The notes under the pieces were generated by a model. It saw only the letters and a program-made list of their open reading frames with translations. It was not told the origin of the DNA and ran no database searches. Positions 4,705 to 54,309 of a stretch of 64,000 nt of DNA are shown piece after piece. The number at the start of each line of letters is the position of its first letter. Positions within the stretch are counted from its first letter, which is position 1. Made by a program: the position numbers and the translations under genes. The DNA is from Thraustochytrium sp. TN22 (Eukaryota; Sar; Bigyra; Thraustochytrida; Thraustochytriidae), in NCBI GenBank assembly GCA_013306675.1, contig JABLUY010000011.1:1-64000 (forward strand), given 5' to 3'.

Positions 4705-6102
4705 ATGGTGGGCGTGGAGATGACCAAGCAGGCGCTGCGCGAGTCGTGCGAAAAGAACAAGCTGTACCGGACGGCGCGGCTGAACGACAAGCTGTACTTG
4801 CACTACAAAGGGTGGAAGAAGATCGAGAACCTGGACGAGTACACTGGGCTCAAGGTGCTCTGGCTGGAGGGCAACGGGCTGCTCAAGATCGAGGGCCTGG
4901 AGCACCAGACGGAGCTGCGCACGCTGTACCTGCACGAGAACGTGATCGAGAGGATCGAGAACCTCGAGTCGCAGGAGCACCTGGACACGCTCAACCTGGC
5001 GCAGAACTTCATCGAGCGCATTGAGAACCTGAGCCACATGAAGGAGCTCAAGACGCTGCTCGTGCCGCAGAACCGTCTGCGCGAGCTCGACGCACTCGAG
5101 GAGCTCACGCGCCTGCCGGAGCTGTCCTGCCTGGACATCCAAAAGAACAAGATCGAGGACCCGGCCATCTTGGACCTGTTGGAGAGGTGCCCGAACCTCA
5201 CCGTGCTCTACTTGCAGGGCAACCCTTGCGTGAAGCAGATTCGCTTCTACCGCAAGACCACCATTGCGCGCCTCAAGTGCCTCAAGTACCTCGACGACCG
5301 CCCGGTCTTCCCGGAGGAGCGGCTGCGCGCCGAGGCGTGGTGCCGCGGCCTGGCCGAGGGCGGTGTTGAGGCGGCGCGCGAGTCCGAAAAGGCCGAGCTC
5401 AGCCGTCAGCGCGAGGAGAAGCGTGCCAAGGAGGACGCCAACTTCCGCGCCTTTGAGAAGATGATGCTCGAGGGCAAGCGCATTCGCGCTGAGCGCGAGG
5501 CTGCCAAGGCCGCCAAGGCCGCTGCCGAGGCCTCGGGCACCGAGCCTGCTGAGCCTGCCGTGGTGGAGATCGTGGACGCCGTTCCTCCTGTGGCGCCGCC
5601 CGCCGCGCCCACGGAAGATGCTGTCGTGCCACCGGTGCCGCCTCCTCCTGCTACCGCTACTGCTGTTGCCCCTGCTGCCGCTGCTGCCGCTGAGCAAGAG
5701 CTCATCAACCCTTTCTCTGGCGAGAAGGTCCTTCACCGTCCGGAGAACCCGGAGAGCAAGGCATTCCGCGAGGAGAAGCTGCGCCGCGCCGAGGCTCGCA
5801 GCGAGGCGGCAACCGACGATGTTGTGCCGGAGTCATCCACCGCTTCTGTTTCACAGCCTGCGTCTGCTGCTGCCGCTGCTGCTGCCCCACCATGCCCTCC
5901 GCCTCTTGAAGAGACGGAGGAGGTCAACGAGGTTGAATCCGACAACACGGAGACCGAGACCGAGACCGAGCACAAGGACGAGACGGCTGGTCCCTCCAAG
6001 GAAGAGGCGAGCGCGCCGCTGCAACGCAAGGACTGTGCTGCGGATGTCACGGACTCGAGCGAGGCTGGGCGTAGCGAGGAGGCCTTTGACGAACTCGACT
6101 GA
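4705..6102 (+). CDS. DNAAF1: Dynein axonemal assembly factor 1 (LRRC50/ODA7-type LRR protein)
   Basis: A 465-residue leucine-rich-repeat protein needed in the cytoplasm to preassemble axonemal dynein arms before transport into the cilium. The N-terminus has the family signature [20 protein letters not shown] at 26-45. About six LRRs run over 38-175 ([33 protein letters not shown] and so on), followed by an LRR cap with [18 protein letters not shown] at 195-212. Residues 215-275 are charged and helical. The C-terminal 180 residues are Pro/Ala/Glu-rich and low in complexity. The ATG at 4705 sits in a CACCATGG context; the 143 open codons upstream are Arg-rich leader. Its presence implies motile flagella. 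It converges with the TauD-AKR gene, with stops 138 bases apart. Confidence 0.95.
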
Positions 6103-6240: not shown

Positions 6241-8262
6241 TCACGTGCGGCTAGTGGCGGAGGCGTCGTAAATGGGCAAAAAGGTGTTGAAGGCTGCCTG
6301 CGCGAAGACGCCCGGGTCGTTGAAGCGGCGGTTCTTGTTGAGCGCGGAGATGGCGGCCATGTCGTCCTCGGAGAGCGCAAAGGAGACGGCGTCGAGATTG
6401 GCGCGAATGTGGTCCGGGTTGGCGGACTTGAAGACCGGACAGGTGCCACGCTGCATGGCCCAGCGCAGGACAACCTGGTGAGGCGTCTTTGCGTGAGCTT
6501 CGGCGATGCGCTGCACGACGGGACTCCGCAGCACGCTGTCGTCATCTTGAGCCATGCCGATCTCCACATAGCTGGCGTGGCCGAGCGGCGAAAATGCAAC
6601 GACGCGCATGCCCTGCGACTCGGCGTAGCGCACGAGGTGGTCCTGCGTGTTAAAGGGGTGGAGCTCGACCTGAAGCACGGCGGGTGGGAACTTGGCGTAG
6701 GCCATCATGTCGCGGAGCTGCTGCACGCTGAAGTTGCAGACGCCAATGGCTCGGGTGCGGCCAGCGACGACCTCGGCCTCCATGAAGCGCCAGGTGCGCT
6801 CCATGGGGATGCGCGCCAGCTCGACCCGCGGGTTGGGCGCGTCCGGGTCGTAGAACCACTCGGGCGGGTAGCGCTTCTCAAAGGGAACGAACTTTTGCGC
6901 GATGGGAAAGTGGATCATGTAGAGGTCGAGGTAGTCGAGCTGCAGATCGGCCAGCGTGCGCGAAAGCGCGTCCGGGACCTTGTCGCCGTGGTAGGTGTTC
7001 CAGAGCTTTGAAACGACGAAGAGGTCCTCGCGGCGCACGAGGCCCTGCGCGATGGCCTCGCTAATGCCCTCGCCCACCTCCTTCTCGTTGCCGTAGTCGC
7101 AGGCGCAGTCCAGGTGGCGCACGCCGGCCTTGATGGCGTCCACCACCACGCCAGCCGCCGCCTCGCGCGGCACCTTCCAGAGGCCGAGGCCGATGCGTGG
7201 CATGAAGGCGCCGTTGTACAGGCGCGCCAACACAGGCGTGCCCGTGGCCTTGGCCTGGAGCGCCGCAGAGCTCGCGTACGTGCCGGCCAGCGGCACGCGG
7301 CCCACGGACGCCAGCACGCGACGCGGCGAGTCGTAGGTGTTGCGCGAGTGCATCGCCACGCGATTATCCACGATGATGGCGTCGCCGCGCTGCCACGGCA
7401 CGCACACGCGCTCGCGCTCCATGTAGGCCGCCACGGCCTCCAGCGCCGCCGTGTCCATGGGCGTGCCGTCGCCCAGGACCACCGCCTTGGTCGGATCGTT
7501 CCGCGAGTCCACCCACCCCTTGTAGGCGGCCACCACCGAGTTGAAGAAGACCTTGCGCCCCGTGCCGGGCTCGCCGCGCACGGCCGGCACGATATTGGTC
7601 GTGCTGCGCAGATCACCGTTGGCCAGCCACTCCCACTCGTGGCCCATGTCGCGCATCTTCGCCTCCGCCTCCTCGCGCGTCTTGACCATGAAGGTGTTCT
7701 TCCACGAGCGTCCGATCGCCGAGGTCTCGTCGTCCTCCTCCGGCATCGTGCGCACGTACCGCACGCCCAGCAGCTCCACCTGCCGCGCCATCGCCGGGAA
7801 CTCCGCCTCGAAGAAATCCCAGACCTTGCGCGACAAAATCAGCGGCGTCTCGCCGCCGCTCGTGGGCGCCACCTCGCAGTAGAACATCACGTAGTCCGGC
7901 GGGTTGCTCACCTGCGCCATCTCGTGGTGAAACGGGATCGGCTCGCTCGGCGGCGACTCGTTCGCCGTGAACACGTAGTCGCCCACCACGTTGCGCCGCA
8001 CCGCCGCGCCGCCCACGTACGGCATGTTCTCCAGTCCCAGGTTCTGCACCACCTCGCCAAAGTCCTCGGCGCGCTCCAGCGCGAACCCGCGCAGCAGCAC
8101 TGCGCCGTGCTCGCGCGCCAGCTCGCGCAGCACCTCCGCGTGCTCCGCCACCGCGCCCGCCGTCGGGTCCTCCTTGGGGCCCAGCGTCAGCGGGAACGCC
8201 TTGCCGTCCACCATCTTGGCCGCAGCATTCTCGACCACCACGAACGGCAACTCCCGCGCCAT
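6241..8262 (-). CDS. TauD/TfdA-like Fe(II)/2-oxoglutarate dioxygenase fused to an aldo-keto reductase
   Basis: A two-enzyme fusion of 673 residues. Residues 1-325 are a TauD/clavaminate-synthase-like dioxygenase: an H-x-E metal pair in FHHEMAQ (H112, E114), the distal His in DNRVAMHSR (H305), and an Arg at about 314 suited to the 2-oxoglutarate carboxylate. Residues 350-673 are an aldo-keto reductase with the full tetrad: D385 and Y390 in HLDCACDYGNE, K419 in FVVSKLWNT and H451 in LYMIHFP. The insert near FEKRYPPEWFYDPD and the GVCNFS motif resemble xylose-reductase-type AKRs. Both active sites look intact, so a coupled hydroxylation and carbonyl reduction on one substrate is plausible; the substrate is unknown. 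The ATG at 8262 is chosen because the 34 codons upstream match neither family. The gene is divergent from XPB. Confidence 0.9.
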   Translation of the reverse strand: MARELPFVVVENAAAKMVDGKAFPLTLGPKEDPTAGAVAEHAEVLRELAREHGAVLLRGFALERAEDFGEVVQNLGLENMPYVGGAAVRRNVVGDYVFTANESPPSEPIPFHHEMAQVSNPPDYVMFYCEVAPTSGGETPLILSRKVWDFFEAEFPAMARQVELLGVRYVRTMPEEDDETSAIGRSWKNTFMVKTREEAEAKMRDMGHEWEWLANGDLRSTTNIVPAVRGEPGTGRKVFFNSVVAAYKGWVDSRNDPTKAVVLGDGTPMDTAALEAVAAYMERERVCVPWQRGDAIIVDNRVAMHSRNTYDSPRRVLASVGRVPLAGTYASSAALQAKATGTPVLARLYNGAFMPRIGLGLWKVPREAAAGVVVDAIKAGVRHLDCACDYGNEKEVGEGISEAIAQGLVRREDLFVVSKLWNTYHGDKVPDALSRTLADLQLDYLDLYMIHFPIAQKFVPFEKRYPPEWFYDPDAPNPRVELARIPMERTWRFMEAEVVAGRTRAIGVCNFSVQQLRDMMAYAKFPPAVLQVELHPFNTQDHLVRYAESQGMRVVAFSPLGHASYVEIGMAQDDDSVLRSPVVQRIAEAHAKTPHQVVLRWAMQRGTCPVFKSANPDHIRANLDAVSFALSEDDMAAISALNKNRRFNDPGVFAQAAFNTFLPIYDASATSRT

Positions 8263-9150
8263 CGTCTCCGCGTTTCTTCGCCTCCAAATCGTTACAGTTC
8301 TGCATTGATGTGGCGGATGCCCTTGATTGCAATCCCACGTTGGCTCGGTGGCACGCCACGCCATCGTGCCAAGGGTGTGCGCTGCCTGAGGACGCCAGGA
8401 TCGTGAGCTCGCGCCAGCTCGCGAGATTGTCTATCAGCGCGCGCGTCGGGCGCGTCGGCGCTTGTGCAAGCTTGTGCGCCGGCATTACGGCAGCAAACTG
8501 CACGGCCTCAAGCCGCAGCGGGGCTAGTAGGCTACGCTGCTTGTCAGAGCAGTGAGACTCGGTACCCAATCAGTCTAGGGCCGACAGCGTGCATCCACGT
8601 CCGGGTCGACCGCCAGCTACGACCGGCCACGACCGGGTCGACCCAGTCACTGCACAAGTCGTGCCAGCCCGCCCCGACTGTGGATCTTGATGTCAACGGC
8701 ATTGATCACCAAGATCTCGCTGCAGCGCTCGACTCGGACAAAAGGTCATCCCCAACAAGGCAAGGCAAGGATCTGGCTACCCGGCGTGTCTTCTTGGCCC
8801 TCCTCGACTTTCTCCGCCAATGGAAAGCCAAACTAAGCTTGCCGGTGCGGCTGGCGCGCCCACACCGCCTGCGGGCCATCGCCGGAACCGCCCTCGTACC
8901 CGCCGTGCTCGTCCAGCTCCATCATGATGTGCAGCTCGCTTGCTCGCTTTGCCAGCCAGCGCAGGCTCGACCCGGGCTCAATCAAACTCGCTTCGCTCGG
9001 CCGCTCGCGCCACGCCGGGCAGCGGCGGTAGCGGGCGGGCGGGCGGGCGGGCGGGCGGACGGACGGACGGACGGGCGGGCGGCGGCGGCGGGTGGTCGCG
9101 CGCCCGCGCCCAGGCGGCTCCGGCGCCGCGCGGCCGGACGGGCGCTCGCC
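8263..9150. other. Divergent intergenic region, TauD-AKR / XPB
   Basis: The shared 5' region of two divergent genes. Most of it is of moderate GC. It ends in a G-rich tetranucleotide array directly before the XPB start. No gene, TATA box or RNA gene is supported. Confidence 0.5.
9028..9086 (+). repeat. (GGGC)n/(GGAC)n array upstream of XPB
   Basis: A run of GGGC tetramers grades into GGAC tetramers and back, ending about 65 bases before the XPB ATG. The regular G runs could fold as G-quadruplexes in the promoter or 5' leader. Confidence 0.7.
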
Positions 9151-11652
9151 ATGGCGGCCAAGTCGCGCGACCTCCTGCAGGCGGCGCTGGCGGAGGCGGA
9201 GAATGTCGCCCTGGAGGAGAACAACTACCTGGGCGAGGACTTCGAGACGGACGAGTACGACGCGAAGCTGGACAAGTCCGCCTCGGCCAAGATCGCGGAC
9301 CGCGCGCGGCGGAGCACGAGCCTGCTGGCCAAGGGCGAGGACTTCCGCAAGGTGCTGGAGCTGCGGCCCGGGCACGAGTCGCGGCCGCTGTGGGTGGCGC
9401 CGACGGGCCAGATTTACCTCGAGGTGACGTCGCCGTACTTTGCGCTGGCGACGGACTTTCTGGTGGCCATCGCGGAGCCGGAATCGCGGCCGGAGCTGAT
9501 CCACCACTACAAGCTGACGCCGTACTCGCTGTACGCCGCCGTCTCTGTGAATCTGGACACGGAGACAATTCTGCGTACCTTGGGGCGTCTAAGCAAGTGC
9601 TCGGTGCCGCCGGAGGTGGACACCTTTGTGCGCAAGTGCACCGCGTCGCACGGCAAGGCCAAGCTCGTGCTGAAGCGCAACCGGCTGTACGTGGAGAGCC
9701 CGTACCCGGAGGTGCTCAAGACGCTGCTGGATATCCGCGCGATCCGACAGGCGCAGGACCAGTCCATCGACGCGCGCCTGCGGCGGCTCGAGGCGCGGCG
9801 GCTGGCGCAGACGGAGGGCACGGCCGAGGGCATCGGCCCTGGTCAGAGTGTGAGCGAGGTGGACCAGGGCGACGTGCGCCTGCTCGAGACGAACGCGGCC
9901 CAGGAGGACCGCGCCGCGCAGGCTACCGACTTTGAGGAGCTGGACAAGCTGCTGGAGCGGCGCATCGAGCGCGTGGATGAGCTGGCCGAGGACGAGGACG
10001 ATGAGGAGGAGGAAGAGCAGGCGCAGCAGACGAGCGGCGCGCAGGCCGGGCGCAAGCGGACCGCGGACGAGGCGGGCGTGAGCGGGAGCGCCGAGCCGCA
10101 GCCAAAGAAGGTGCTGAGCTTCGAGATCCGGCCCGAGTTCATCGAGCAGGTCAAGGAGGCCGCCATGATGGCCGACTACCCGCTGATGGAGGAGTACGAT
10201 TTCAAGCGCGACACGCGCAACCCAGACCTGCCCATGAGCCTGCGCGCATCGACGCGCGTACGTCCGTACCAGGAAAAGTCTCTGGCCAAGATGTTTGGCA
10301 ACGGGCGCGCGCGGTCCGGCATTATCGTGCTGCCGTGCGGCGCCGGCAAGACGCTGACGGGCATCACGGCGGCGTGCACGGTGAAGAAAAGCTGTATCAT
10401 CTTTTGCATCAACGCAGTGGGCGTGGAGCAGTGGATCCGCTCGCTGAAGATGTTCACCACGCTCAAAGACGAGCACATCCGCCGCTTCACGAGCCAGTCC
10501 AAGGACGACCTGCACGAGTCTGGTGCCACCGTGCTGGTGACCACGTACAACATGATGTCCTACAGCAAGGGCCGTTCCGAGGACGGCGAGCGCGTCATGG
10601 AGCAGGTCAAGAACACCGAGTGGGGCCTCATCATCATGGACGAGGTCCATGTGGTGCCGGCCAAGATGTTCCGCATGGCGCTACGCCACGTCAAGTCACA
10701 CTGCAAGCTGGGCCTCACCGCGACGCTGGTGCGCGAGGACGGCCTCATCGACGACCTGAACTTTCTCATTGGCCCCAAGCTCTACGAGGCCAACTGGCAG
10801 GCGCTCACCGAGGAGGGCTACCTGGCCAAGGTGCTGTGCGCCGAGGTCTGGTGCCCAATGACGGCCGAATTCTTCGCCGAGTACCTCAACCCGGACACGC
10901 CGGCCAAGCGCAAGCAGCTGCTCTACGTCATGAACCCGAACAAGTTCGCCATCTGCCAGATGCTCTTGCGCTACCACGTCGAGAAGCGCGACAAGGTGCT
11001 CGTCTTTTCCGACGACATCCCCGCCATTCTGCGCTATAGCACCTACCTGCGCATCCACCACCTCTATGGTGACACCACCCAATGGGAGCGCGAGAGCCTG
11101 CTGCGCCGCTTCCGCGGCGGCAAGAACCTGCAGGACGGCGAGACGGAGATCAATGTGCTTGTCATCTCCCAGGTTGGCGACGTCGGCATTGACCTGCCCC
11201 AGGCCAACGTCATCATTCAGGTCTCCTCGCACTTTGGCTCGCGGCGCCAGGAGGCGCAGCGTCTCGGCCGCATTCTGCGGCCCAAGCCCGGCGAGGACTT
11301 TAACGTGGGCTGGAACGCCTACTTTTACACCCTCATCTCCATGGACACCTCCGAAATGTACTTTTCCAACAAGCGCCAGCAGTACCTGGTTGACCAGGGC
11401 TACACCTTCAAGGTCATCCGCAACATCAGGGAGATCGCCCGCGAGAGCGGCATCCCCTACGAGGAGCTGCCCATCGACAAGCAGCGCGAGATCCAGCGGG
11501 ACCTGCGCGCCAACAAGGTCTCCGAGGCTCTCTTCGAGAAGAGCCTCGAGATCGCCAACCGCCAGCAGGCGAGCTCGCGCAAGGCCTCGGGCGGCCGTGC
11601 TCCGCCCAACAAGCTCATGCGCAGCCTCCTGCGCAAGACTGGCAGGCGCTGA
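9151..11652 (+). CDS. ERCC3: TFIIH helicase/translocase subunit XPB (ERCC3/Ssl2)
   Basis: An 833-residue XPB orthologue, the 3'-5' DNA translocase of TFIIH that opens promoters and acts in nucleotide excision repair. Walker A is PCGAGKT at 395-401, the Walker B box is DEVH at 497-500, and motif III (GLTAT) is followed by the XPB-specific R-E-D triplet at 528-530. Motif VI QRLGRILRP starts at 703. An N-terminal damage-recognition-type region (PLWVAPTGQIYLE and onward) precedes the helicase core, with an acidic linker between them. Length matches human and yeast XPB. The ATG at 9151 has a GCCATGG context; 229 open codons upstream are unlike XPB and are taken as leader. It converges with the SMYD-like gene, with stops 216 bases apart. 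Confidence 0.97.
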   Translation: MAAKSRDLLQAALAEAENVALEENNYLGEDFETDEYDAKLDKSASAKIADRARRSTSLLAKGEDFRKVLELRPGHESRPLWVAPTGQIYLEVTSPYFALATDFLVAIAEPESRPELIHHYKLTPYSLYAAVSVNLDTETILRTLGRLSKCSVPPEVDTFVRKCTASHGKAKLVLKRNRLYVESPYPEVLKTLLDIRAIRQAQDQSIDARLRRLEARRLAQTEGTAEGIGPGQSVSEVDQGDVRLLETNAAQEDRAAQATDFEELDKLLERRIERVDELAEDEDDEEEEEQAQQTSGAQAGRKRTADEAGVSGSAEPQPKKVLSFEIRPEFIEQVKEAAMMADYPLMEEYDFKRDTRNPDLPMSLRASTRVRPYQEKSLAKMFGNGRARSGIIVLPCGAGKTLTGITAACTVKKSCIIFCINAVGVEQWIRSLKMFTTLKDEHIRRFTSQSKDDLHESGATVLVTTYNMMSYSKGRSEDGERVMEQVKNTEWGLIIMDEVHVVPAKMFRMALRHVKSHCKLGLTATLVREDGLIDDLNFLIGPKLYEANWQALTEEGYLAKVLCAEVWCPMTAEFFAEYLNPDTPAKRKQLLYVMNPNKFAICQMLLRYHVEKRDKVLVFSDDIPAILRYSTYLRIHHLYGDTTQWERESLLRRFRGGKNLQDGETEINVLVISQVGDVGIDLPQANVIIQVSSHFGSRRQEAQRLGRILRPKPGEDFNVGWNAYFYTLISMDTSEMYFSNKRQQYLVDQGYTFKVIRNIREIARESGIPYEELPIDKQREIQRDLRANKVSEALFEKSLEIANRQQASSRKASGGRAPPNKLMRSLLRKTGRR

Positions 11653-11868: not shown

Positions 11869-13038
11869 TTACGCAGCTTCCCGCCGAAATGAACAACCAC
11901 AATCCACCTGGCACGAAAAGCCATAGTTCCATGAGAAGAACTTTTGCAGCTGCGCCGTGCTCAGTCCCCGCGAGCCAGCGTAGTGAAAGGTAATCTCCTC
12001 ACCGGCCGCAAGGTCGCGCCGCGGAATGAGAGACGCCATGGCGCCGTCAAAGGACAGGTCCACCGAAGGCTCGCACGAGTGATTCGCGAAGCTCAGCGTC
12101 GGGTACAGCGCCGAGGCCGTCGGCGTGCGCAGGGAGTTGACGTGCAGACTTGCCATGGCAGCCATGAAGAACTCGCGCGGGTCGCCCAGCGGGCGATCCT
12201 GCAACGAAGAAGAGCCCGCCCAGAACTTGCTCTGCGCCGCCGGCAGGCCCGCCAGCGCGCACGCGCGCTCCACGCGCGCGTGACTGCGCAGCCAGTCCTG
12301 CTCCCACGCCGCCTCCGTGCCGGGCCCCACCTCGGGCCGCACCATGGACCACACCGTCACGAGCGTGTTCATGGACCCCATCACAAGCTCCTCGGCCAGC
12401 GCGCGCACCAGGAGACCCTGCACGATGCCCGGGAAGCGGTTTGTCTGCGTCGGCCCGGTCTCGCCGGTGCTCTCGTCGCCCAGTGAATGGAGCGCACGCA
12501 AGGTCTTGCGGATGAGCTCCTCCCTGGCGCTCACGCTTTCATTTTCGCTCGTGCAAGTCGGGCACGAGCTCCTGTCCGTCGCCATGCACACGACGCATGG
12601 CCCGTTCGCCGCGCTGTGCATGGCCCGGCGCCCGCGCTTCTTCTTCTTGCTGCCAGCCGTCGCCTTTGGCCTGTGCTGCAAGATCTCCGGCTTGGGCGTC
12701 TGCTGCGCACCCCGCCCCTGCGCCTGCGCCTGCGCCGGCCCGCGCGTCAGCGGCGGCCGCTGCATGGGCAGCGCCTCGTCTCCGTCCACGTCCAGCATCG
12801 CGCTCTCCGCCGCCTTCGCGGGCCGCCCCGCCGCCTGCCTCACCTCGGCCGCCGCGAGCGGCAGCAGCGGGCCGACCGCGACGCCGCGCCGCAGGTCGCG
12901 CGCCGCGAAGAGCCCGCGCCCGCCGCCCACGCCCGCCAGCCGCTGCACGCGCAGCGGCAGCGCCTCGCACACCAGCGAGCTCAGCACCTCCAGCTCCACC
13001 ACGCTCGCCGCCTCGCGCACGCGCGCGCGCCCCGCCAT
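11869..13038 (-). CDS. SET-domain protein, SMYD-like
   Basis: A 389-residue split-SET protein, likely a lysine methyltransferase. The SET-N part is GRGLFAARDLRRGVAVGPLL at 40-59. A long insert (70-210) carries a small Cys cluster, CVVCMATDRSSCPTC at 148-162, where SMYD proteins have a MYND finger; it has only four Cys, so it is a reduced or non-canonical one. SET-C has the cofactor-binding NHSC motif (LSFANHSCEPSVDL, 315-328) and GEEITFHYA (346-354). The C-terminus NYGFSCQVDCGC (371-382) matches the post-SET Cys of SMYD enzymes. The ATG at 13038 comes just before the SET-N strand; 134 upstream codons are low-complexity Arg/Ala. Target unknown, either histone or non-histone. Confidence 0.8.
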   Translation of the reverse strand: MAGRARVREAASVVELEVLSSLVCEALPLRVQRLAGVGGGRGLFAARDLRRGVAVGPLLPLAAAEVRQAAGRPAKAAESAMLDVDGDEALPMQRPPLTRGPAQAQAQGRGAQQTPKPEILQHRPKATAGSKKKKRGRRAMHSAANGPCVVCMATDRSSCPTCTSENESVSAREELIRKTLRALHSLGDESTGETGPTQTNRFPGIVQGLLVRALAEELVMGSMNTLVTVWSMVRPEVGPGTEAAWEQDWLRSHARVERACALAGLPAAQSKFWAGSSSLQDRPLGDPREFFMAAMASLHVNSLRTPTASALYPTLSFANHSCEPSVDLSFDGAMASLIPRRDLAAGEEITFHYAGSRGLSTAQLQKFFSWNYGFSCQVDCGCSFRREAA

Positions 13039-13485
13039 GCCGCGCCGCGCCGCGCCGCGCGCGTCTCCGTCTCGCGCGTCTCGCCTCTGCTCGCCTGCGC
13101 CTGCTCCGGCGCTCCCGCGCGTTCCGTTCCCCGTTCTTCCCCGCGCTTGTGCATCGTTCGTTCCGTTCTGGCCTCGGGCCGGCGGAATCGGCGAAACTTG
13201 GCGAGTCAAGGCGGGCACGCGCCGGAGGAGGCGCGCCGCGCTCCGCGCCGCGCCGCGCGCGCGCGGCAGACGGGCTTGCGCGCGCGCTCGCTCGCTCGCT
13301 CGCTCGCTCGCGCGCGCGCGTGCTTGCTGCGGCGCGGCTGCTGCGGCGCGGCGCGACCCGGCGCTCGCGACCCCCTCGGCGGCGGCGGCGGCGGCGGCGC
13401 GGGCGGCGGCGGCCAGGCGAGCGAGGGAAGCGCCTCGCACGTGCAGGTGGAGGAGCAGAGCGAGGCGGGGGAGCGCGAGGCGGGA

Positions 13486-13519
<34 letters not shown>

Positions 13520-13538
13520 GCGCGCGCGTGTTGGCACG
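13039..13538. other. Divergent intergenic region, SMYD-like / double GYF
   Basis: A 500-base shared promoter region, extremely GC-rich. It contains a (CTCG)n array at about 13285-13310 and a GGC-triplet run at about 13486-13520 directly before the GYF gene. No further gene is supported. Confidence 0.5.
13285..13310. repeat. (CTCG)n tetranucleotide array
   Basis: About six CTCG units between two divergent start codons. The same tetramer (GAGC/CTCG) recurs upstream of other genes in the window. Confidence 0.8.
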
Positions 13539-14249
13539 ATGCCGACGCAATGGTACTTCCGCGACAAGAAGGACAAGGTGCAGGGCCCGTTCTCCTCGGA
13601 GGAGATGCGCGCCTGGTATGAGGCCGGGTACCTGAACGCCGACCTGCCCGTGTGCCGCGGCGACCCGCGCATGAACGCGTTCAAGCCGCTGGCCAACATG
13701 TTCCCGAACGGCAGCAATGCCTTCCTCGAGGAGGAGGACGTGCCGGCGCCGCGCCAGGCGGCCACGCGCCAGCAGGGGGGCGGCGGTGGCGGCGACGGCG
13801 GCCAGTGGTACTTTCTGGACCGCAACCACCAGCAGCAGGGCCCGTTCACCGATATCCACATGCGCCAGTGGCACATGGCCGGCTACTTTGAGCCGACGCT
13901 GCAGATCATCAACGTCGCCTTCAGCGACCCCAAGTGGGCCTCGCTGCGCGAGTATTTTCCCAACGTGGCCGACGCCTTTGCGGTGGAGGCTGTGCACGTG
14001 GGCTCGGAGCAGGCGCGCCCGGGCCAGGGTGCGCCCTTCGCTGAGGCCGTTGGCTCCGGCAACCTGCCGCGCTCGCCGCACCGCAACGCCGCGCCGGGCG
14101 ACGACCCGCGCTTCAACTTTCCTGAGTGGCTCCCGGTGCCGCCGCGCTTCCGCGGCGTCAAGAAGGTGTATCCCAGCGAGAAGAACGGCGGCAAGCGAAG
14201 AGTCGCGATCCGCGACGTCAACGGCCACGAAGTCAAGACGCTCGTTTGA
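13539..14249 (+). CDS. Protein with two tandem GYF domains
   Basis: A small protein of 236 residues built mainly of two GYF-type modules. The first is QWYFRDKKDKVQGPF..MRAWYEAGYL (4-32) and the second QWYFLDRNHQQQGPF..MRQWHMAGYF (89-117); both keep the aromatic residues and the QGPF turn that form the pocket for proline-rich peptides. A Gly-rich linker separates them. The C-terminal 50 residues contain FNFPEWLPVPPRFRGVKKVY and end in a basic tail. GYF proteins act in spliceosome assembly (CD2BP2) or translational repression (GIGYF); this one lacks the other domains of either. The ATG at 13539 is the first one that fits; the long upstream frame is GC-repeat leader. Confidence 0.85.
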   Translation: MPTQWYFRDKKDKVQGPFSSEEMRAWYEAGYLNADLPVCRGDPRMNAFKPLANMFPNGSNAFLEEEDVPAPRQAATRQQGGGGGGDGGQWYFLDRNHQQQGPFTDIHMRQWHMAGYFEPTLQIINVAFSDPKWASLREYFPNVADAFAVEAVHVGSEQARPGQGAPFAEAVGSGNLPRSPHRNAAPGDDPRFNFPEWLPVPPRFRGVKKVYPSEKNGGKRRVAIRDVNGHEVKTLV

Positions 14250-43329: not shown

Positions 43330-43780
43330 CCGCCCGCCCGCGGACGCGGGCGCGCACGCGAAGGCTGGCCGTCGCGGGCGCCACGCGCGGGCAGCAGGCC
43401 GGCAGGCCGCGAAGGGGCCTCCAAGGCGCGCGCGGCCGGCCGGCCCGGCCTGGCGCGCTGCTGTGTCGCACGGAGTCGTCGCGGCGGCGGCGCGGGCGCA
43501 GCAGAGCGTGACACAGCGCGCGGGCGGGCGCGGCGCGCGGCGGCAGCGCGCGGCGAGGGCTGCAGGCGCGCGGCAGGCGCAGGCGCCCCGCCGGCCCGCG
43601 GCGGCGGCGCGGCGCGGCGCGGCGCGGGGCAGCGCAGCGTAGCACAGCGCAGCGCAGCGCAGGGCAGCGCAGCGCCTGCACGGCGGCATTGACTGCGACG
43701 ACGCGGACCTGCACTGGAAGGACGTGGACTCGCAGGCAAGGAAGCAAGGAAGCCGAGAAGCGCGAGCGGTTGGCCTCGTG

Positions 43781-44058
43781 ATGGAGGCGGCGGCTGTGTC
43801 GGACGGGGTTGGTGATGCCTACTTCTCGCCGCTGGATGCGCCGTTCTCGCCGTACACGTACTCGGACGAGAGCAGCGAAGACTATCCGACCTCGCCCGGC
43901 TCGCGCGCACCTGAAAGGTCGACGCCAGGGAGCGAGTACTCGCTCCCGGGTCGCACTGGCGGTGGAACCAACGACGCTGCATCCACTGGCCATCAAGGGG
44001 CCATCAGTAGTGCGGGTGGCATCAGCACACCTGGACAAAGTAGTAGCAGCATCATCAG

Positions 44059-44094
<36 letters not shown>

Positions 44095-46897
44095 TACCAC
44101 TGGCAGTGAACACGATTACATGGCCAGTGATCACAGCGGCGCCAGCGGTGCGAGCAGTCCACAAGACGCGGTGCATGCGCCTGACTGGCACCCTGCTAGC
44201 AGCGTGCCGCAGACCATTGCAGAAGAGGATCTCGGAGACCTCATCGACCTTCTCGAGGCCGACACGGCAGACTACACGCAGTGGTTCGACTTGCCGGAGA
44301 ACGGCGCAAGCTACACCACGAACGGACACCACAGCGCGGCCGTCGTGCCCGGCTTCGAAGCGCCGCAGCCACCGGACATGAACTATCATCACTACCCCAG
44401 CAGCGTTGGCGCTGGCCCAGACCAAGGCGCAAAAGACTTGGGCGAGAGCAGCGGCAACAACGGCAGGAATCATCCGTACCTGCTCAGCATCGGTGGCTCG
44501 AGCCACCTTGAATCCAGGAAAGAGCCACATGCGAGCAGCAACGGCGGCGGCAACAGCACGGGCAACAGCACGGGCAACAGCTTCAGCAACGGTGATTCAC
44601 GTCACATCTCTGCTTCGACCTCGAGCTCGACAGAACCCACTATTTTTGGCGACTACGATGCCGCGCCGCACGCGCCAGTCAAGCTGGAGGACGCTGCGGT
44701 TCTGCAAAGCTTCGGCCACGCGCTGCAGCGCCTCGACCCATCCTCCGCAAGCGCTGGTGACATGCAATTCCTGGACGGCTTCCTCGTCGAAACAAATACG
44801 CTCCCCGGTGGGGTCCGCCGTGACGAGAACATCCTGCACCCACCCGTCATAAATGTGCCGTCCGCACCACATAGCGAGGAAAAGGAGCAGCAGCAGCAGC
44901 AGCAGCAGCAGCATTTCGTCATGCCTGCGCCACCGGTGCCACTCAGCGAGGCGGATGCTGTCGCGCGTGTGGACTACAAGTCGCACTTCTTGGCCAAGTA
45001 TTGGCGCAACGACCGCAAAAACCTGCAGTGTTTCCCATTTTGCCCCGAATTCGGTGACTACTACACGATGCGGGTCCAGGGTGAGAAGCACAACATCAGC
45101 GGCGGCGGCACGTGCAGCAGCGCCGTGGAGGCCGTCCTGCATAGCTCCGACGTCGAGCAGCGCAAGCTCAGCGCTCTCTCGCGAATCAACCTTGCCACCG
45201 ACGAAGGCAAAGTGACCAGCCTGCGGCCCGGCATGGTGCTCTCCGTCGACGACTTTCAGAGTCTCGTCAAGCACTGCCTGCGCGGCCGGACCACACCGCT
45301 GCCCGACGGCAGTACGCTCCTTACTTTCAAGGCCACCTGCTGGAAGCTCAGCGTCACGCTCTCCAAGAAGCGTCGCCCCAAGGACAAGCCTGACCTCGCC
45401 CCGAAGTACTGCTTCGAGGTCATCTGCCTCGAGCAGCTCCCAGACGGCTCCATGCGCATCATCACCAACACGCTCTCCAACTATTTCCAGATTGCCTCCA
45501 CGCGCACCTTGGCGCGCGAGCTCGAGTCGACTGGCGCCTCGGAGCCCTCCACACAGCCCTCACGCAAGCGTCCGGCCGAGCAAAAGATTCTCGTTGTCAC
45601 CTCGCCCGACGACCAGCTCCTCGGGACGGACCCACACCAAGCAGCGCCCAAGAAGCGCCATCTCGACTTCGCCGTTGAGCGCGCCGCTACGCGCACTGTG
45701 CCGCCGGCCGTTTTGGTACCGCCAGCCAAACCGGGCACACCCGACGACGAGGTCCGTGCGGCGCAGTCGCAAACGCCAGCGGAGCCCGAGGGCGAGCTCA
45801 AGCTCAACGCAGAGCAGTCGCCGAAGCTGCCGGACACCGTCCAGGATGAGGTCAAGGAAGTTCAGCCAAGCTCAAGCACAACAATGCCGCCAGCCACGGC
45901 CCCGCACGACCGCACTCACGCTGGCGAGAGCGAGAGCTTGCCGCCCACCGCGCCGCCGACCAGCGACGAGGAAGCCGGTGCCACGGGCGCGTCTGCATGG
46001 CCCCAGCGCGATTTGGACGGCCTCACGCGCCTCACGTCCAAACAGTCCAGCGCGCAGCACAGCGAGGAGGCCGACCTCGATCACCATGCGCGCCCCGCGG
46101 ACGCCGAGGTCGTGCCCTTCGCCCGGGCGCAGGTCGCCACCACTTTGGACGCAATCCCGCCACAGGCCTCTGGCACGCTCCCGCTTGACCGCGCGCAGCC
46201 CATTCACCCCTTCATCATCGAGGAGGACGGCAGTGCCGCGCCGGAGGAGCCATTCCGCCTCGACTACGCGTACCTCTACTGCTTCTTCCTCGGCATCTTT
46301 GGCGCGCACCACTTCTACCTCGGACGCACCATGTGGGGCATCGCCTACGCCTGCACGCTCGGGTTTTGCGGCTTTGGCTGGCTCTTTGACCTCGTGCGCA
46401 TGAAGTCCCTGGTCGACGAGGCCAATCATGAAGGCTCTGGCGCCTGCTCTCTGCCCGAGGCGTATGTCCTCTGGCTGCTCCTCGGCGTCTTCGGCGGCCA
46501 CCGCTTTGCGCTCGGCCAAACGCGCTGGGGCATTTACTACCTCTTCACCTTTGGCGGCATGGGCGTCGGTTGGCTCACCGACTTTTGCCGCATGCCCCAG
46601 CTGCATCACCGCAGCCTCACGCGCGGCTCCTCGCAAAATGCCGTTCAGCTGTGCGATCTCACCGATGCATATATTCTTTGGATGCCCGGCGGTCTCTTCG
46701 GGGCGCACCGCTTCTACCTCGGCCAGCACCGCATGGGCGTCCTCTACGCCTGCACCATGGGCATTCTCGGCATCGGCTGGGCCTACGACCTCTTCCAGCT
46801 TCCTTCCATGGTGCAGGCTCGCAACGCCACTCTCCAGGCCCGAGCTCAAGGCCGCTCTCGCGGCGACGTAGAGATGCAGACCCTCGCCTCGAGCTGA
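43781..46897 (+). CDS. Family member 4: Cys-rich domain fused to three TM2 membrane modules
   Basis: A 1,038-residue protein. The first 390 residues are Ser/Gly/Asn-rich and disordered, with an acidic hydrophobic patch EEDLGDLIDLLEADTADYTQ and a Gln run. Residues 398-583 are related to the core domain of the three paralogues: FLAKYWRNDRKNLQCFPFCP aligns with their YMRNN..KNLRCFPSCS, and CFEVICLEQLPDGSMR..SNYFQIASTR aligns with member 1 SFVVYTFQQLPDDTLR..SPSFRIYCRR. A basic KKRRPKDK lies within it. A low-complexity linker with Lys/Arg patches follows. Residues 825-1015 hold three TM2 modules, each with two helices and a GxFGxHxFxLG loop (GIFGAHHFYLG, GVFGGHRFALG, GLFGAHRFYLG). The protein could be a membrane-anchored regulator whose soluble part is released, but no cleavage site is proven. 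ATG at 43781; the open frame upstream starts at a non-ATG codon. Confidence 0.85.
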
Positions 46898-47187: not shown

Positions 47188-47205
47188 CCGGTACCGGAAT
47201 TCCGG
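47188..47205. promoter_or_regulatory. Two overlapping perfect palindromes
   Basis: CCGGTACCGG (47188-47197) overlaps CCGGAATTCCGG (47194-47205), both perfect, about 490 bases upstream of the RBBP4-fusion start. A protein-binding function is possible but inferred from symmetry alone. Confidence 0.25.
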
Positions 47206-47414
47206 AAGAGGGCAGCGGAAGTCCGGCCGACGAGATACCGGCGACGGCGTGGAGCAGCTGGACGGGCAGCAGAGCGATTATAACCAAGCTCCGCGGGGCG
47301 GCGCGGCGCGCGGGCGCGGCGCGGGCGGCGGCGGTGGCGGCGCGGCGGCGCGGCGCGGCGGCGCGCTCTGCGGCCGCTGGAGCGCGGCTGCGGCGCGCGG
47401 CGGCGCGGCGGCGA

Positions 47415-47449
<35 letters not shown>

Positions 47450-47530
47450 TACTAGGCGGCGCTCCTAGCCGGGAGGGCTAGGAACGAGAGGGAAGGGCGG
47501 CCGAAGGTCGCGAGGCGCCGGGCGCGCGCG

Positions 47531-47548
47531 CGAGCGAGCGAGCGAGCG
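47531..47548. repeat. (GAGC)n array upstream of the RBBP4-fusion gene
   Basis: Four to five GAGC tetramers about 145 bases before the start codon, in the same type of position as at 20059. Confidence 0.8.
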
Positions 47549-47692
47549 GCGTGTGCGCGCGCGCGAGAGAGAGAGAGGGAGCAAGCGAGAGGCGGGAGGC
47601 AGGGCTTCTGCGGGCGAGCCCAACCGTAGGCGAAGGCGGGGTGGCAGCAGGGGGAGGAGGAGGAGGACTACCAGCAGCAGCAGGGCGGCAGC

Positions 47693-49130
47693 ATGGAGAC
47701 GGCCAACACGGAGGCACCTGCGGCGCCTGCGGCCACTTCGGAAAAGGAGCAGGAGACTTCGGCAGCGGCAGCGGCGCCGGCAGCGACGCCCGCTGCTCCG
47801 GCCAAGGACAAATCCGAGCCCGCGCCGGCGGACGAGCTGGTCGAAGAGGATGAGGACGAGGAGGACGAGGATGAGGACGACGACGATGACGATGACGACG
47901 ATGATGACGATGACGACGAGGATAACGCGCCGTCGCAGGAGAAAAGGGATCAGGATGCGACAGGCACGGGCGCCGAGGATGATGGAGGGGAGCTGGTGGG
48001 CGTCTCCACGATGGACGGAAACGGGCGCGAGTGCGTGTGCGAGCGGACCAAGACCAAGTTCCTTGCCGGGCTGTGCAAGCAGGCGGAGGACGCGGCCGTG
48101 CAGGGGCCGGACGCGGAATTCCTGGCGCAGTTCAAGGGCAAGATGATCTCGTTTCCAGACGCGGGCACCAAGAAGGAGGGCGTCGACCTGTACAACGCGT
48201 GGGCCGACCAGCTAGGCGCGTCCACGGACGAGCTGGCCGGCCTGGACGACCCGATCCTTGTCCGCTGGACGCACTTCCCCATCGGCTTCTTCAAGCTCGA
48301 CAGCGCACGCCCGTGGCGCCTGCAGCCCACGGTGAAGAAGTCGCGCTGGCACACGCAGGACCAGGTCATCGCGGCAGGCCCGAACTTCGGGCGCAGCGTG
48401 CCCATCCCGTGTCTGAAACTTTCGGCGGAAATGGCGCCCATCTCGCTGTCGGCGCGCCAGACCAAGGACGCGGGCGGCGGTGGCGCGGGCGCGGCCAAGG
48501 GCAGCGCTGCGCGCCGCCTCTCGGCCACTGAGCAGGCCAGTGACGCAGGCAGCGGCAGCGGCAAGAAGCGCCGTAAGCGCGGCAGCGCCGGGCCCAGCAC
48601 CTACCACAACCAGAACGCCTGCCTGTGCGAGCTGCTGCCTACGACGAGCACCGCCGGCATGTGCCGCCTGGTGGAGGCCCAGCTGGCCGACCTCGGCTAC
48701 GAGCGTCTGGCGGGCCTCATGTCGCAGCTGCCGCGCCGCACGGCCAACGTGGGCGGCATCAACGTGCGCGAGCGCTGGCTCGCACACCTGGGCGTCACCG
48801 AGGACGACATCGGCGACCTCAACCGGGCGCACATCCAGCTGCGGTGGACGCACTTCCACCCTTACTTTTTCAGCAAGAGTGCCGCCAAGATGCGCCGTCT
48901 CCTGCACTCGGTCGAGGTGGTGGCCGAGCACGAGCCGGAGGATATCATTCAGTACGGCCAGCACCGCGGCCGCGCCGTGCCTGTGCCGTGCCTGCGCATC
49001 ACTGGCCCCAAGGTCGAATTCAAGGAGCCGCTGCGCCCCGGCTCCGATGCCGGCTCCGACGCTGGTCGCGACGACGACATGGGCGACAGCGACGACGGCG
49101 AGGATGCCGCCGAGGGCGGCGGCCCGTCCT

Positions 49131-49162
<32 letters not shown>

Positions 49163-52100
49163 GCCGCTGCAGGCGGGGCCGCTGCGACGCCGGCCAAGGC
49201 GGCCGCCATGGACGAGGACGAGGACGATGATGAGGACGGCGACGGCGACGCCACCATGGCCACGCCGCAGCCCAAGAAGCGCCGCCTGTCCGTGACAGAC
49301 GCCAAGACGCCGCCGTCCACCACGCGCTCGCGCCGCACGCGCGGGGGGCTCAACTCGGGCCCCATGTGCGTCTGCGAGATTCTGCCGTGCAAGGCCAAGG
49401 CCGGCTACTGCAAGATCGTCGAGGGCGAGGCTGCCGCGAACGGGCTCACTTGGCTGGAAGGCCTTACCATTCAGCTGCCCTCGCACGGCCAGGAGCTTGG
49501 CGGCATTCGTCTGCGCCAGCGCTGGCTCGACCACCTCGGCATCAACGAGGACCAGGTCGAGACGCTGAACCGCAAGACCGTCTACGTGCGCTGGACGCAC
49601 TTCCCGGCGTCCTTCTTCCGGATGATTGGCACCAAGAACCGCCAGCTGCGCCGCCTGCGCAAGAGCGTGCCCATTCACCCCAACCATATGGCGGAGGACA
49701 TGTTCACGGACACCATGGCAGTCCCAGTGCCGTGCGCAGAAATCGGCCCGGGCCTGCCGGCGCCCGGGCCTGAGGAGGCGCCCGAGCCCAACGTGCACGC
49801 GCTCAAGGACGGCGCGCCGCGGGACGGCGACTCCGAGACCGCGTCTCAGGCCGATGACCTCGACGGTGGCGGCAACGCGGGCGATCACACGGGGCCCAGG
49901 CTAACCACCAAGGAGATCCGCTTCAAGTATCGCAAGAGCAGCTGCATTTGCGAGCTCATCGACATCTACTCGCGGCCCGGCATCTGCAAAGAGATCGAGC
50001 CGCGCCTCGCTGCCGGTGGCAACGAGTGGCTCGAGGGTCTCTCTGTGCACCTGCCCAAGCCGGAGACCTCGCGAGCCGGCATTAACATGCGCCTGCGCTG
50101 GCTCGCGCACCTTGGCATCACCGAGGACAAGGTGGACAGCCTCGGCTTCCGCAACGTCGACGTGCGCTGGACGCACTTCCCGCCAAAGTTCTTCACCCTC
50201 ACCGATAAGAACATGCGCAAGCTGCAGTTCATGGTTGACGTTGACGACCGCCACATGCCCGAAGACGTTGCGCCCTACGGCAAATACCGTGGCCTGGCCA
50301 TTCCGGTCCCCTGTGTCAACATCGAGAAGGACCTCGACAAAATGCCGCAGCTCGCGGCCCCGTCCGTCGCGGAACCTGCGCCTACGCCTGAGCCGCGCCA
50401 GCGCCAGCAGGCCTCCATGCCGCCGCCCGCCAGCAAGGCCAAGGCCGCGCCGCCGGCGGCCTCGCCGGCGCCCGCGACTGCCAGCAGCAGCAGCAGCAGC
50501 AGCAGCGCTCGCAAGGCGCAAGCCAATGGCGCGACGCCGGTCTCTGAGGGCGGCCGCCCGCAGCGCGCTGCGGCGGCCGCGGCGCTCGAGTCCACCAAGC
50601 AACCGCTCCCGCCCGCTTCGCGCCACTACAACACTGCTTCGTGTGTCTGCGAGCTCACTGCCTGCAAGCACCCTGCCGGCATGTGCCGCGAGGCAGAGGG
50701 CGTGCTCGCGGCGCAGGGCTTTGAGTGGCTTGCCGGCACCATGTCTGCCATTCCCAAACCCAAGAGCTCCAAGGGCGGCGTCAATCTCCGCGAGCGCTGG
50801 CTCGCGCACCTGGGCGCTACCGAGGACGCCATCAACCGCCTGCAGCGCAAGGACGTCTACGTGCGCTGGACGCACTTCTCGCCCCAGTTCTTCAAGCTCG
50901 GTGGCAAGATGCGCAAGCTTCAGTTCACCGTCGACCCGGAGCCGCGCCATGACCCGGACGACATGATCAAGTTCGGCCCCTACCGCGGCCGCGCGATCCC
51001 AGTTCCGCTCGTCGACATCCAGGCGGTCATGCGGGAGGCCGGCATCACTATGCCCACCCCTGCCGAGCCCGGTGCCGCCGTCCCTGCGCACCGCAGCGGT
51101 GCCGACGACCTTGACGATGACATGGATGATGACATGGATGAGGACGAGGACGTCGGCGCGGCCGCTGCGCGCTCCATGCGGCCCATCAAGCCCGTACCGG
51201 CCAAGTCGACCGTCAATGGCGCCGCGCGCAAGATCCCCGACACACCTGTCCAGTCGCAACGCATCAGCGTCCCCGAGGCGCTGGCTGCGTCCGCGAAGGA
51301 GGCCGAGGGAGGCGATCTCGACGACGAGGACGACGAGGACGACGCCATGTCGCTCTCCTCCGAGAGCGACCTTCGTACCGGTCTCACGCGCGGCGAGATT
51401 GAGGCTCGCATTGTGACCGGCCCGCGCCAGCCCGGCGTGCTGCCGGACCCGGCCGACCCGGACCTGCCGGACGCGAGCACCAAGGAGTACGCGCTCTGGG
51501 CCAAGTACGCACCCTTTTTGTATGAGTACGTCGCGACGCAGCAGTATGCCTGGCCTGCCCTCTCAGTGGCCTGGATCGACTCGAACGAGTACATCGCGCC
51601 TCGCTCCGCCTTTTGGACCGGCGCCAATCGTGGCGATGCCAGCAAGGGCGACGAGATCGCCATCACCACCATGCAGCTCCCACGGTCCGCCGCCGACACC
51701 TCGCCGACCGATGACCAGCCCGCGACCAACCGGGACGAGTTCTCCGGCTCCTTCATGGCCGACTTCGAGTACGGCGTGCGCTATCGCATCGGGTCCGAGG
51801 TTCACCGCGTGCGTACCATGCCTCAGGACCCGTACGTTGCGGCCTGCTTCGCGGCCTCGACGCAAATCCACATTGTGCGCGTCAATCCGGCGCTCACCGA
51901 AGTCGACACCGCGCTCTCGCTGCGCACTCCGCACAAGGACGCCGGGTACGGGCTCAGCTGGAACGAGACGCGCCGCGGCCTGCTCTTGTCGAGCAGCGAC
52001 GACGGTCTCATCGCCTGTTGGGACACCAACATCCAGCGCCAGACCAGGCTCTTCGAGGACCTTGAGGGCGTCTCGGTCAACGAGGTCGCCTGGGCGCACG

Positions 52101-52660
52101 GCTCCGCGCACGAGTTCGCTTGCGTCGACGACAAGGCGGTCGTGAGCTGGTGCGACGTGCGCGAGGGCAAGCTCACCGCCTTTGCCAACGTGCCCGCCTC
52201 GGCTTCCGACGCCACCTCCAACGGGACCGACAAGCCGCCAAGCGCCAACTGCATGAGCTTCTCTCCTGTCGACGGCAACCGATTCGTCACCGGCAGCGCC
52301 TGCGGGACGATCCACTTTTGGGACCGGCGCCTTGGCAAGGAGCCCACCATGTCCCTTAAGCACCATCGCGGTGAGGTCCTCGGCATCGCCTGGAACCCTT
52401 ACCTGCCGCACCTTGTCGCCTCCTGCGGCGGCGACTCCAAGGTGTGTCTTTGGGATGCTTCTGGCAGCGCCAAGTCCGCCGCCACGCCCGTCTCGCTGGA
52501 CGATCCAGACGGCCCCGCTGAGCTGCTCTTTGTGCACGGCGGTCACACCGATACGGTCTTCGACATCGCCTGGTGCCCGGACGACCCTTGGTGTGTCCTG
52601 TCCACGGCCGAGAACAACGTCGTCCAGGTCTGGGCGCCGGCCAAGAGCCTCCGTGTCTAA
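47693..52660 (+). CDS. Five-repeat Cys-rich domain protein fused to an RBBP4/MSI1-type WD40 propeller
   Basis: A 1,655-residue nuclear-type protein. After an acidic N-terminus come five copies of a ~130-residue domain I do not recognise, at about 112-243, 306-436, 556-684, 749-878 and 981-1109. Each has C-x-C-E, then GxCxxxE, RxRWLxHLG, VRWTHFPxxFF and a closing RxxPVPCxxI. Copy 1 is the most diverged. Linkers are acidic or Ala/Ser-rich. Residues 1262-1655 are an RBBP4/RBBP7/MSI1 protein: the H4-binding helix KEYALWAKYAPFLYEYVATQ, then WPALSVAW, WD repeats (GYGLSWN, VASCGGDSKVCLWD) and the family signature GPAELLFVHGGHT. MSI1 proteins are histone-binding subunits of CAF-1, PRC2, NuRD and HAT1 complexes, so the repeats probably bring a further chromatin- or DNA-reading function. 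ATG at 47693; tail to tail with the EF-hand-like gene. Confidence 0.9.
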
Positions 52661-52875
52661 AAGTTCTTCATTCCAACAAGGCGGAAAAAAGGATGAGGAG
52701 GAAGAGAGAAACAGCACGCGTGTCGTATGCAAAGCACAAAGCGCAAATCGCACACAGGTAACAACGTCAGAATAGGTAGCCATTACATCACTCACTCAAG
52801 CAAAACGAAGATAAAAAGAGGACATGACCAAGACGATGATCCCGTAGACCTGAGCTCCCTGTCCAGCGCTTCGCA

Positions 52876-54309
52876 TCAGAAGCCTTTGCGAGGCGGAAGC
52901 TGCGCTGCGCGGATCTTGAAAACCTCTTCCCACTCGCGCGTGCGAGTCCGCGACTCGTACACGCGAAAGGCCTCCTGCGCCTCTGGGTCGTCGTCCGGGC
53001 CTCGGAGCTCTGTCTGGTGCACCTTTTGATTCAAGTGCCTGGGCAGGTTGGGGTACTTGCGTTTCCCGCGCGGCCGGTGAGCGTCCGCGAGCTGGCGCTG
53101 CTTGCGAGCCTCGATAGGCGCCAGCCAGCGCTCTCGCTGTTGCGCGAGGTGAGCCTGGCGCGCCTCGTCCCGAGCTATTGCTGCTGCTACATCCTCCGCC
53201 TGTTGCAGGGCGACGCGCTCCAGGTGCGCTCGTAGGGCGTCGCGCTTGGTCTCTGCGAGTCGCGCGGCATGCTCGAGCCGCACTGGTGAGAGCGTCTCCG
53301 CTGCCGGCCGTTGCATGGTTGTCATGAAGCGCTCCTCGTCCGGGAAATAGGCCTCGCCGCCTGTGAAGGGCCGTAGCAGGCGTACCGTGCTCTGGTGCTT
53401 GAGCGTAGCATATTGGTATCGCGAGGGTCGCAGCGCCGCGACCTCGCGCAGGGTTTCCTCGCGGAAATCAGCGGCGCTCTTGGTGTGGGGGATGTCTTTC
53501 CGCAACGGCGGTCCCATGGCGGCCGGCTGTTGGAGCACATCGTAGCGAACCCTTTCGCCGTCGACGACGTTCTCCAAGAGCTTGTCACAGTCCGCGAGCG
53601 AGAGCCCAACTTCGGCGCGAAACTGCAGCAAAAGGCGCCGGAAGTCTTGCGCCGCCACGTACCCTGTGGCATGGAGGTCGAGATCGCGCAGGTGCTGCAT
53701 GAAGCCGTCGCCGCGCACTTGCACGCGGGCCAGGAGCGCGTGGTGTACCTCGGCTTCGAGGCGCAGCCTGTGCTCGGCGAAGGAGGCGGCGCCCGCTTCT
53801 CGCTCCTGGCGCAGCACGGCCTTTACAGCATCCTGCTGGACCCAGAGCGTCTGCCTCCGCTTGGCGTCCTCAAGGACCGCGACCTCTGCCTGGAGCGCGC
53901 GCGCGCCTTCGTAGCTGCAGGGCACGAGGCGCTCCTCGTCAATAATCTCGATGCTCGGCTGGAAGCTTGCCTCTGGGTCTACAAACGGGTTCGCGCGCGC
54001 CTCGCGCGCGGCGCGCAGCGCTGCGACCGGGTCTAGAGGGTCAAAGGCAATTTGACTTTTACTCCCGCGAGTGCGTGGCGCCTCCGCCTTGACCGCCGCC
54101 TTGCGCCGTTGTACGAGCATGTGGAGTGTGTCCGTCTTGATGGCCTGAACCTGCGGCGGCTCGTGCCTGGCGCTTCGCCGCCGCTCTGGGACCGCTGCAT
54201 CATTGCTCGCGCCGACGCCAGCGCGCGGCCGCTCCCGCTTGCGCGGCCGCCGCCGCTGCTGCTGCTGCTGCTGCTGCTGCCGCCGCAGCAGCGGCTCCTG
54301 CGGCTGCAT
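52876..54309 (-). CDS. EF-hand-like helical protein (unrecognised)
   Basis: A 477-residue charged, mostly helical protein that I cannot name. A Gln/Arg-rich N-terminus leads to IAFDPLDPVAALRAAREARA and a long helix. An EF-hand-like unit FMQHLRDLDLHATGYVAAQDFRRLL has a degenerate loop (D-x-H-x-T-G-x-V-x-x-x-D). Then come DIPHTKSAADFREETLREV, a second long helix rich in Arg, Glu and Ala, and a tail with FKIRAAQLPPRKGF. The arrangement resembles flagellum- or cytoskeleton-associated EF-hand proteins, but this is only a suggestion. The ATG at 54309 starts MQPQEPLLRRQ; the frame is open for 42 codons upstream from a non-ATG codon. It is divergent from the coiled-coil gene. Confidence 0.7.
   Translation of the reverse strand: MQPQEPLLRRQQQQQQQQRRRPRKRERPRAGVGASNDAAVPERRRSARHEPPQVQAIKTDTLHMLVQRRKAAVKAEAPRTRGSKSQIAFDPLDPVAALRAAREARANPFVDPEASFQPSIEIIDEERLVPCSYEGARALQAEVAVLEDAKRRQTLWVQQDAVKAVLRQEREAGAASFAEHRLRLEAEVHHALLARVQVRGDGFMQHLRDLDLHATGYVAAQDFRRLLLQFRAEVGLSLADCDKLLENVVDGERVRYDVLQQPAAMGPPLRKDIPHTKSAADFREETLREVAALRPSRYQYATLKHQSTVRLLRPFTGGEAYFPDEERFMTTMQRPAAETLSPVRLEHAARLAETKRDALRAHLERVALQQAEDVAAAIARDEARQAHLAQQRERWLAPIEARKQRQLADAHRPRGKRKYPNLPRHLNQKVHQTELRGPDDDPEAQEAFRVYESRTRTREWEEVFKIRAAQLPPRKGF

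Follow-up and report, generated by a model that had tools for sequence, protein, structure and literature searches.

Five predicted THAP-like modules and an RBBP4/MSI1-type propeller in a single thraustochytrid reading frame

What kind of protein carries five copies of a cysteine-rich domain ahead of a histone-binding propeller? The question is raised by a reading frame at 47693..52660 (+) of the window, the 64,000-nucleotide stretch of Thraustochytrium sp. TN22 contig JABLUY010000011.1 (assembly GCA_013306675.1) that was analysed here. The frame encodes 1655 amino acids (about 178 kDa) with no in-frame stop. A preliminary description, made from the sequence, placed the gene at these coordinates, which are correct, and took it for a fusion of five copies of an unrecognised domain to an RBBP4/MSI1 propeller. 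The fusion stands, as repeats and propeller share one uninterrupted frame, and it is real and unusual; its interest lies in the fusion itself and in the lineage that carries it. For the repeated domain, a divergent THAP-like module is the best reading, and we put at roughly 0.6 the probability that this is a chromatin protein in which a THAP-like zinc-finger array, joined to an RBBP4/MSI1 histone-binding propeller, tethers the propeller to chosen DNA sites.

Five repeats and a propeller in one frame

The open frame runs from stop to stop over 1676 codons (47630-52660, +), with the ATG at 47693 and the stop codon at 52658-52660; all features of the gene given below lie on the same strand. From copy 1 through the propeller, every segment has a G+C content of 0.83-0.92 at third codon positions; the value for the acidic N-terminus is 0.74. 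The acidic linker between copy 5 and the propeller (51047..51478, isoelectric point (pI) 4.1) contains five in-frame ATG codons, so that the propeller could have a start site of its own. That repeats and propeller come from separate transcripts or start sites, with no working fusion, is nonetheless very unlikely in view of the uninterrupted frame with its even third-position composition, and of the absence of unread bases across 47200-53000, within a host contig of 301,938 bases.

The five copies were delimited by alignment to one another and are 138-144 residues long, with pI values of 7.8-9.2: copy 1, the most divergent, at 48017..48448, copy 2 at 48602..49033, copy 3 at 49349..49762, copy 4 at 49925..50350 and copy 5 at 50624..51046. 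When the whole assembly (37.9 Mb, 453 contigs) was searched with copy 5, the other four were recovered at E-values of 3.0e-42, 6.5e-40, 3.5e-29 and 2.3e-20 (42-53% identity), a similarity far above chance that bears out their homology. The motifs first listed for them hold in part: CxCE and GxC are found in five of five, whereas RWLxHLG is found in four (copy 1 has AWADQLG); WTHF and the subsequent FF are common to all five, but the full string VRWTHFPxxFF occurs in only three; and P(V/I)PC is present in four, with PVPL in copy 5.

Ten other loci, each with one copy, were found by the same search (E 3.2e-15 to 5.3e-7). Two of these, L018 and L019 on contigs C277 and C404, show no difference across 2782 bases (100% identity) and are counted once, which leaves nine stand-alone relatives (a minimum, since counts from the genome search are lower bounds) and, with the window copies, 14 distinct copies. 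The identical pair is either an assembly duplicate or a very recent copy. An unrooted tree built from these 14 sets the five window copies apart from the stand-alone ones (support 95/95), which fits duplication inside this gene, and the five probably arose in that way; the branching order among them is not resolved, and copy 1 forms a long branch. With the divergent copy 1 as query, two of the relative loci are found at E < 0.001 and three more at 0.03-0.26.

The C-terminal part of the protein (51479..52657) is a complete WD40 propeller of the RBBP4/MSI1/p55 type, as recognised by Pfam and by alignment with RBBP4. Its 390 residues align end to end with RBBP4/p55 (query 1284-1673, E 1.5e-55), and the N-terminal histone H4-binding segment (51485..51682) matches Pfam CAF1C_H4-bd with 32 bits against a cut-off of 22.7, so that the claim of a complete MSI1-type protein with its H4-binding segment is confirmed. 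The stretch DDPDGPAELLFVHGGHT at 52499..52549 is the aligned counterpart of a loop that we take to flank the H4 pocket in RBBP4, and the HGGHT stretch is kept. Among the positions that we assume to lie on the H3 side of RBBP4, E126, R129, Y181, E319 and E395 are retained in the alignment and N128, E179 and E231 are changed.

A canonical MSI1 gene (L001) is also present in the genome, and two further loci (L002 and L004) likewise score over the CAF1C cut-off; the window gene is therefore an extra, diverged copy, its propeller having 31% identity with L001. This low identity, together with the three substitutions on the presumed H3 side, would suit a propeller that has drifted and lost histone binding, the protein being a transcription factor of THAP type in which the RBBP4 domain is a relic. 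We judge this unlikely, as the end-to-end match and the retained H4-binding segment and HGGHT stretch argue against it.

The repeat and the THAP domain

Modelling of one copy, which the preliminary description had proposed, was carried out on copy 5 with AlphaFold2 (predicted local distance difference test 93.1, predicted template modelling score 0.87). The predicted fold matches structures of the THAP domain (PF05485), which is found in the P-element transposase, THAP1 and C. elegans CtBP. Residues P44, W59, F85 and P128 are present in 14 of 14 copies, in the same order as the Pro, the Trp, the Phe after the His and the final Pro that we take to be the THAP invariants, and the Arg that follows the HF motif is near-invariant in the 14-copy alignment.

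Confidence in a THAP assignment is limited by the modest structural Z of the THAP matches and by the Pfam scores, the best of which is 18.9 bits, below the cut-off of 23.9. At E-values up to 10, only three of the 14 copies match Pfam THAP, none of them from the window, where the nearest thing to a hit is a sub-threshold match of copy 1 to ARM_5 (E 0.29). The description of the domain as unrecognised was thus half right: Pfam gives no useful match for any copy of the window, but the relatives lead to sub-threshold THAP and the predicted fold matches that of THAP structures, which largely, though not fully, refutes the claim of an unknown domain. With the modest scores on one side and the shared fold and residue order on the other, we think it doubtful that the repeat is a new zinc-binding fold with no THAP descent, its likeness to THAP being convergent or due to chance.

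The repeats depart from THAP most clearly in their metal ligands, for which excerpts of PMC3956667 give the pattern C-X2-4-C-X35-50-C-X2-H. The first pair is C-x-C in all 14 copies, and the third ligand Cys is missing in 13, being present only in the relative L016 and in no window copy; three positions ahead of the His, seven copies (among them the five from the window) have Arg, three have Gly, three Thr and one Cys. C-x-C, the His and the extra Cys of a GxC motif are, in contrast, invariant in 14 of 14. The alignment suggests, as the simplest reading, a zinc site built from C-x-C, GxC and the His of WTHF, with the third Cys relocated. Because of this deviant pattern we use the term THAP-like and stop short of assigning the domain to THAP itself. 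Its end also resembles without being identical to the AVPTIF box, which lies at the C-terminal end of THAP in the excerpts of PMC6944463 and PMC6402169: the window copies have (A/S)(V/I)P(V/I)P at this position and the relatives VVPDVxF, IVPDVxF or similar. A further difference is that the repeats apparently occur outside animals, to which a review confines THAP.

A repeat with the THAP fold need not have kept DNA binding and might act as a protein-protein or oligomerisation module, the whole protein being a scaffold around an RBBP4 core. The missing third Cys and the pI values of the copies, just 7.8-9.2, are in keeping with this, as is the suggestion by the authors of PMC8552245 that the THAP domain may mediate DREAM interactions. 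We nevertheless regard a scaffold as rather unlikely, since the invariant C-x-C, GxC and His are what would be expected of a retained metal site, and since the near-invariant Arg after the HF motif and the two basic linkers (below) also speak against it. The earlier suggestion of DNA or zinc as possible ligands of the repeats is compatible with the evidence; nothing was found in favour of modified histones as a ligand.

Profile matches of the repeats to structures in the PDB were otherwise weak and partial and are ascribed to chance: oleate hydratase (E 0.035-0.037 and 1.6-1.7), Enhancer of polycomb 1 (E 0.63), an oxygenase beta chain (E 0.7) and mitochondrial release factor 1 (E 2.1). A SAP30-type zinc finger was considered for the C-x2-H that we presume it to have, and no Pfam or structural match pointed there. 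A scan of prokaryotes with the five copies gave 44 pattern matches and no relatives, and an IMG/VR viral candidate (L005:5001-5153) lies antisense to a phage-like frame (4838-5800, -) and is likewise put down to chance.

Linkers, relatives and genome context

An acidic N-terminus (47693..48016; pI 4.1, 41% Asp+Glu, no Cys) with a poly-Asp tract precedes copy 1, and five linkers separate the domains, two of them basic and three acidic (pI 4.1-4.4). The first basic linker (48449..48601, pI 11.7) contains KKRRKR, a possible nuclear localisation signal, and the second (50351..50623, pI 11.4) is rich in Ala, Pro and Ser. Besides the linker ahead of the propeller, the acidic ones are 49034..49348 (pI 4.2 overall, with KKRR and RRTRGG close to its end) and 49763..49924 (pI 4.4).

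The nine stand-alone relatives have open frames of 349-666 codons. Loci on C266 (E 0.12) and C402 (E 0.22), both weak and with an internal stop, were left out, as was a remnant on C150 (E 0.005). Two further genome queries yielded no extra intact copy, only this short remnant (L046, C150:52539-52631), which lies within a 115-aa frame and is probably a pseudogene. In six of the nine relatives, no more than 11 of 200 shuffles attained the crude heptad score of the C-terminal part, a coiled-coil signal that is a further likeness to THAP proteins; in the other three the score was unremarkable (23, 44 and 127 of 200). Two pairs of domain genes, L012/L013 and L014/L015, have 87-88% identity; over a compared length of 10 kb, the contigs of each pair have only about 1-2 kb of sequence in common, which suggests that individual genes were copied to new sites.

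Long open frames, a G+C content of 61-74% per 2 kb in the window and genes that are polyunsaturated fatty acid synthase-like suggest by themselves a thraustochytrid genome. Two enoyl reductase domains of the PfaD type (E 5.8e-200 and 6.8e-198) are encoded; their open frames are 2083 and 1719 aa long, and one of the domains is preceded by a FabA-like dehydratase domain. Elsewhere in the window, a CRAL/TRIO lipid-binding domain is joined to an EDR2 C-terminal domain (1277-3559, -), a TauD dioxygenase domain and an aldo/keto reductase domain share one frame (6244-8430, -), an XPB/ERCC3 helicase gene (8407-11649, +) adjoins one for a SET-domain protein (11872-13680, -), and a 1084-aa frame with three TM2 stretches (43643-46894, +) lies upstream of the fusion gene.

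Proposed function and its meaning

The predicted THAP-type fold and the fusion in one frame are supported, and we infer DNA binding, histone binding and recruitment by the fusion protein. The five-copy array would grip several neighbouring or clustered copies of one DNA site, and the propeller would hold H3-H4 or dock a chromatin complex of the CAF-1, PRC2, Sin3/HDAC, histone acetyltransferase or DREAM type at those sites. With array and propeller in one chain, the adaptor would be targeted by sequence and not through a separate DNA-binding partner.

This proposal is drawn by analogy with LIN-15B and LIN-36, THAP proteins that, according to excerpts of PMC8552245, cooperate with DREAM, a complex containing the RBBP4 protein LIN-53. 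The link between THAP and RBBP4 in C. elegans rests there on co-localisation and genetics with DREAM, and the partners are separate proteins, whereas in the window gene they form one chain. HIM-17 of C. elegans resembles the fusion in carrying several THAP domains (six) in one chromatin-associated protein; it is, however, an animal protein, and the excerpt of PMC9757741 mentions no RBBP4 propeller. Proteins of the RBBP4/RBBP7/MSI1/p55/Mis16 group are alike in their complete propeller with H4-binding segment, but the chains of known structure that were matched have lengths of 401-492 aa, which leaves no room for an array of this kind. No published account of a THAP-like/RBBP4 fusion or of a thraustochytrid THAP was found in the open-access literature, to which the search extended.

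The wider picture, which we consider evenly balanced, is of THAP-type modules outside animals with a relocated zinc ligand, present in at least nine stand-alone genes of a thraustochytrid-like protist and, in one member, fused as five copies to RBBP4, so as to hard-wire the DREAM-linked THAP-RBBP4 partnership of animals. If a protist has a family with the THAP fold, this DNA-binding module of transposon origin would have to be older or to have arisen more than once. If RBBP4 is naturally fused to a THAP-like array, this would be direct evidence that both can belong to one mechanism, and would give experimenters a compact protein to work with, an adaptor that binds histones and carries its own DNA address.
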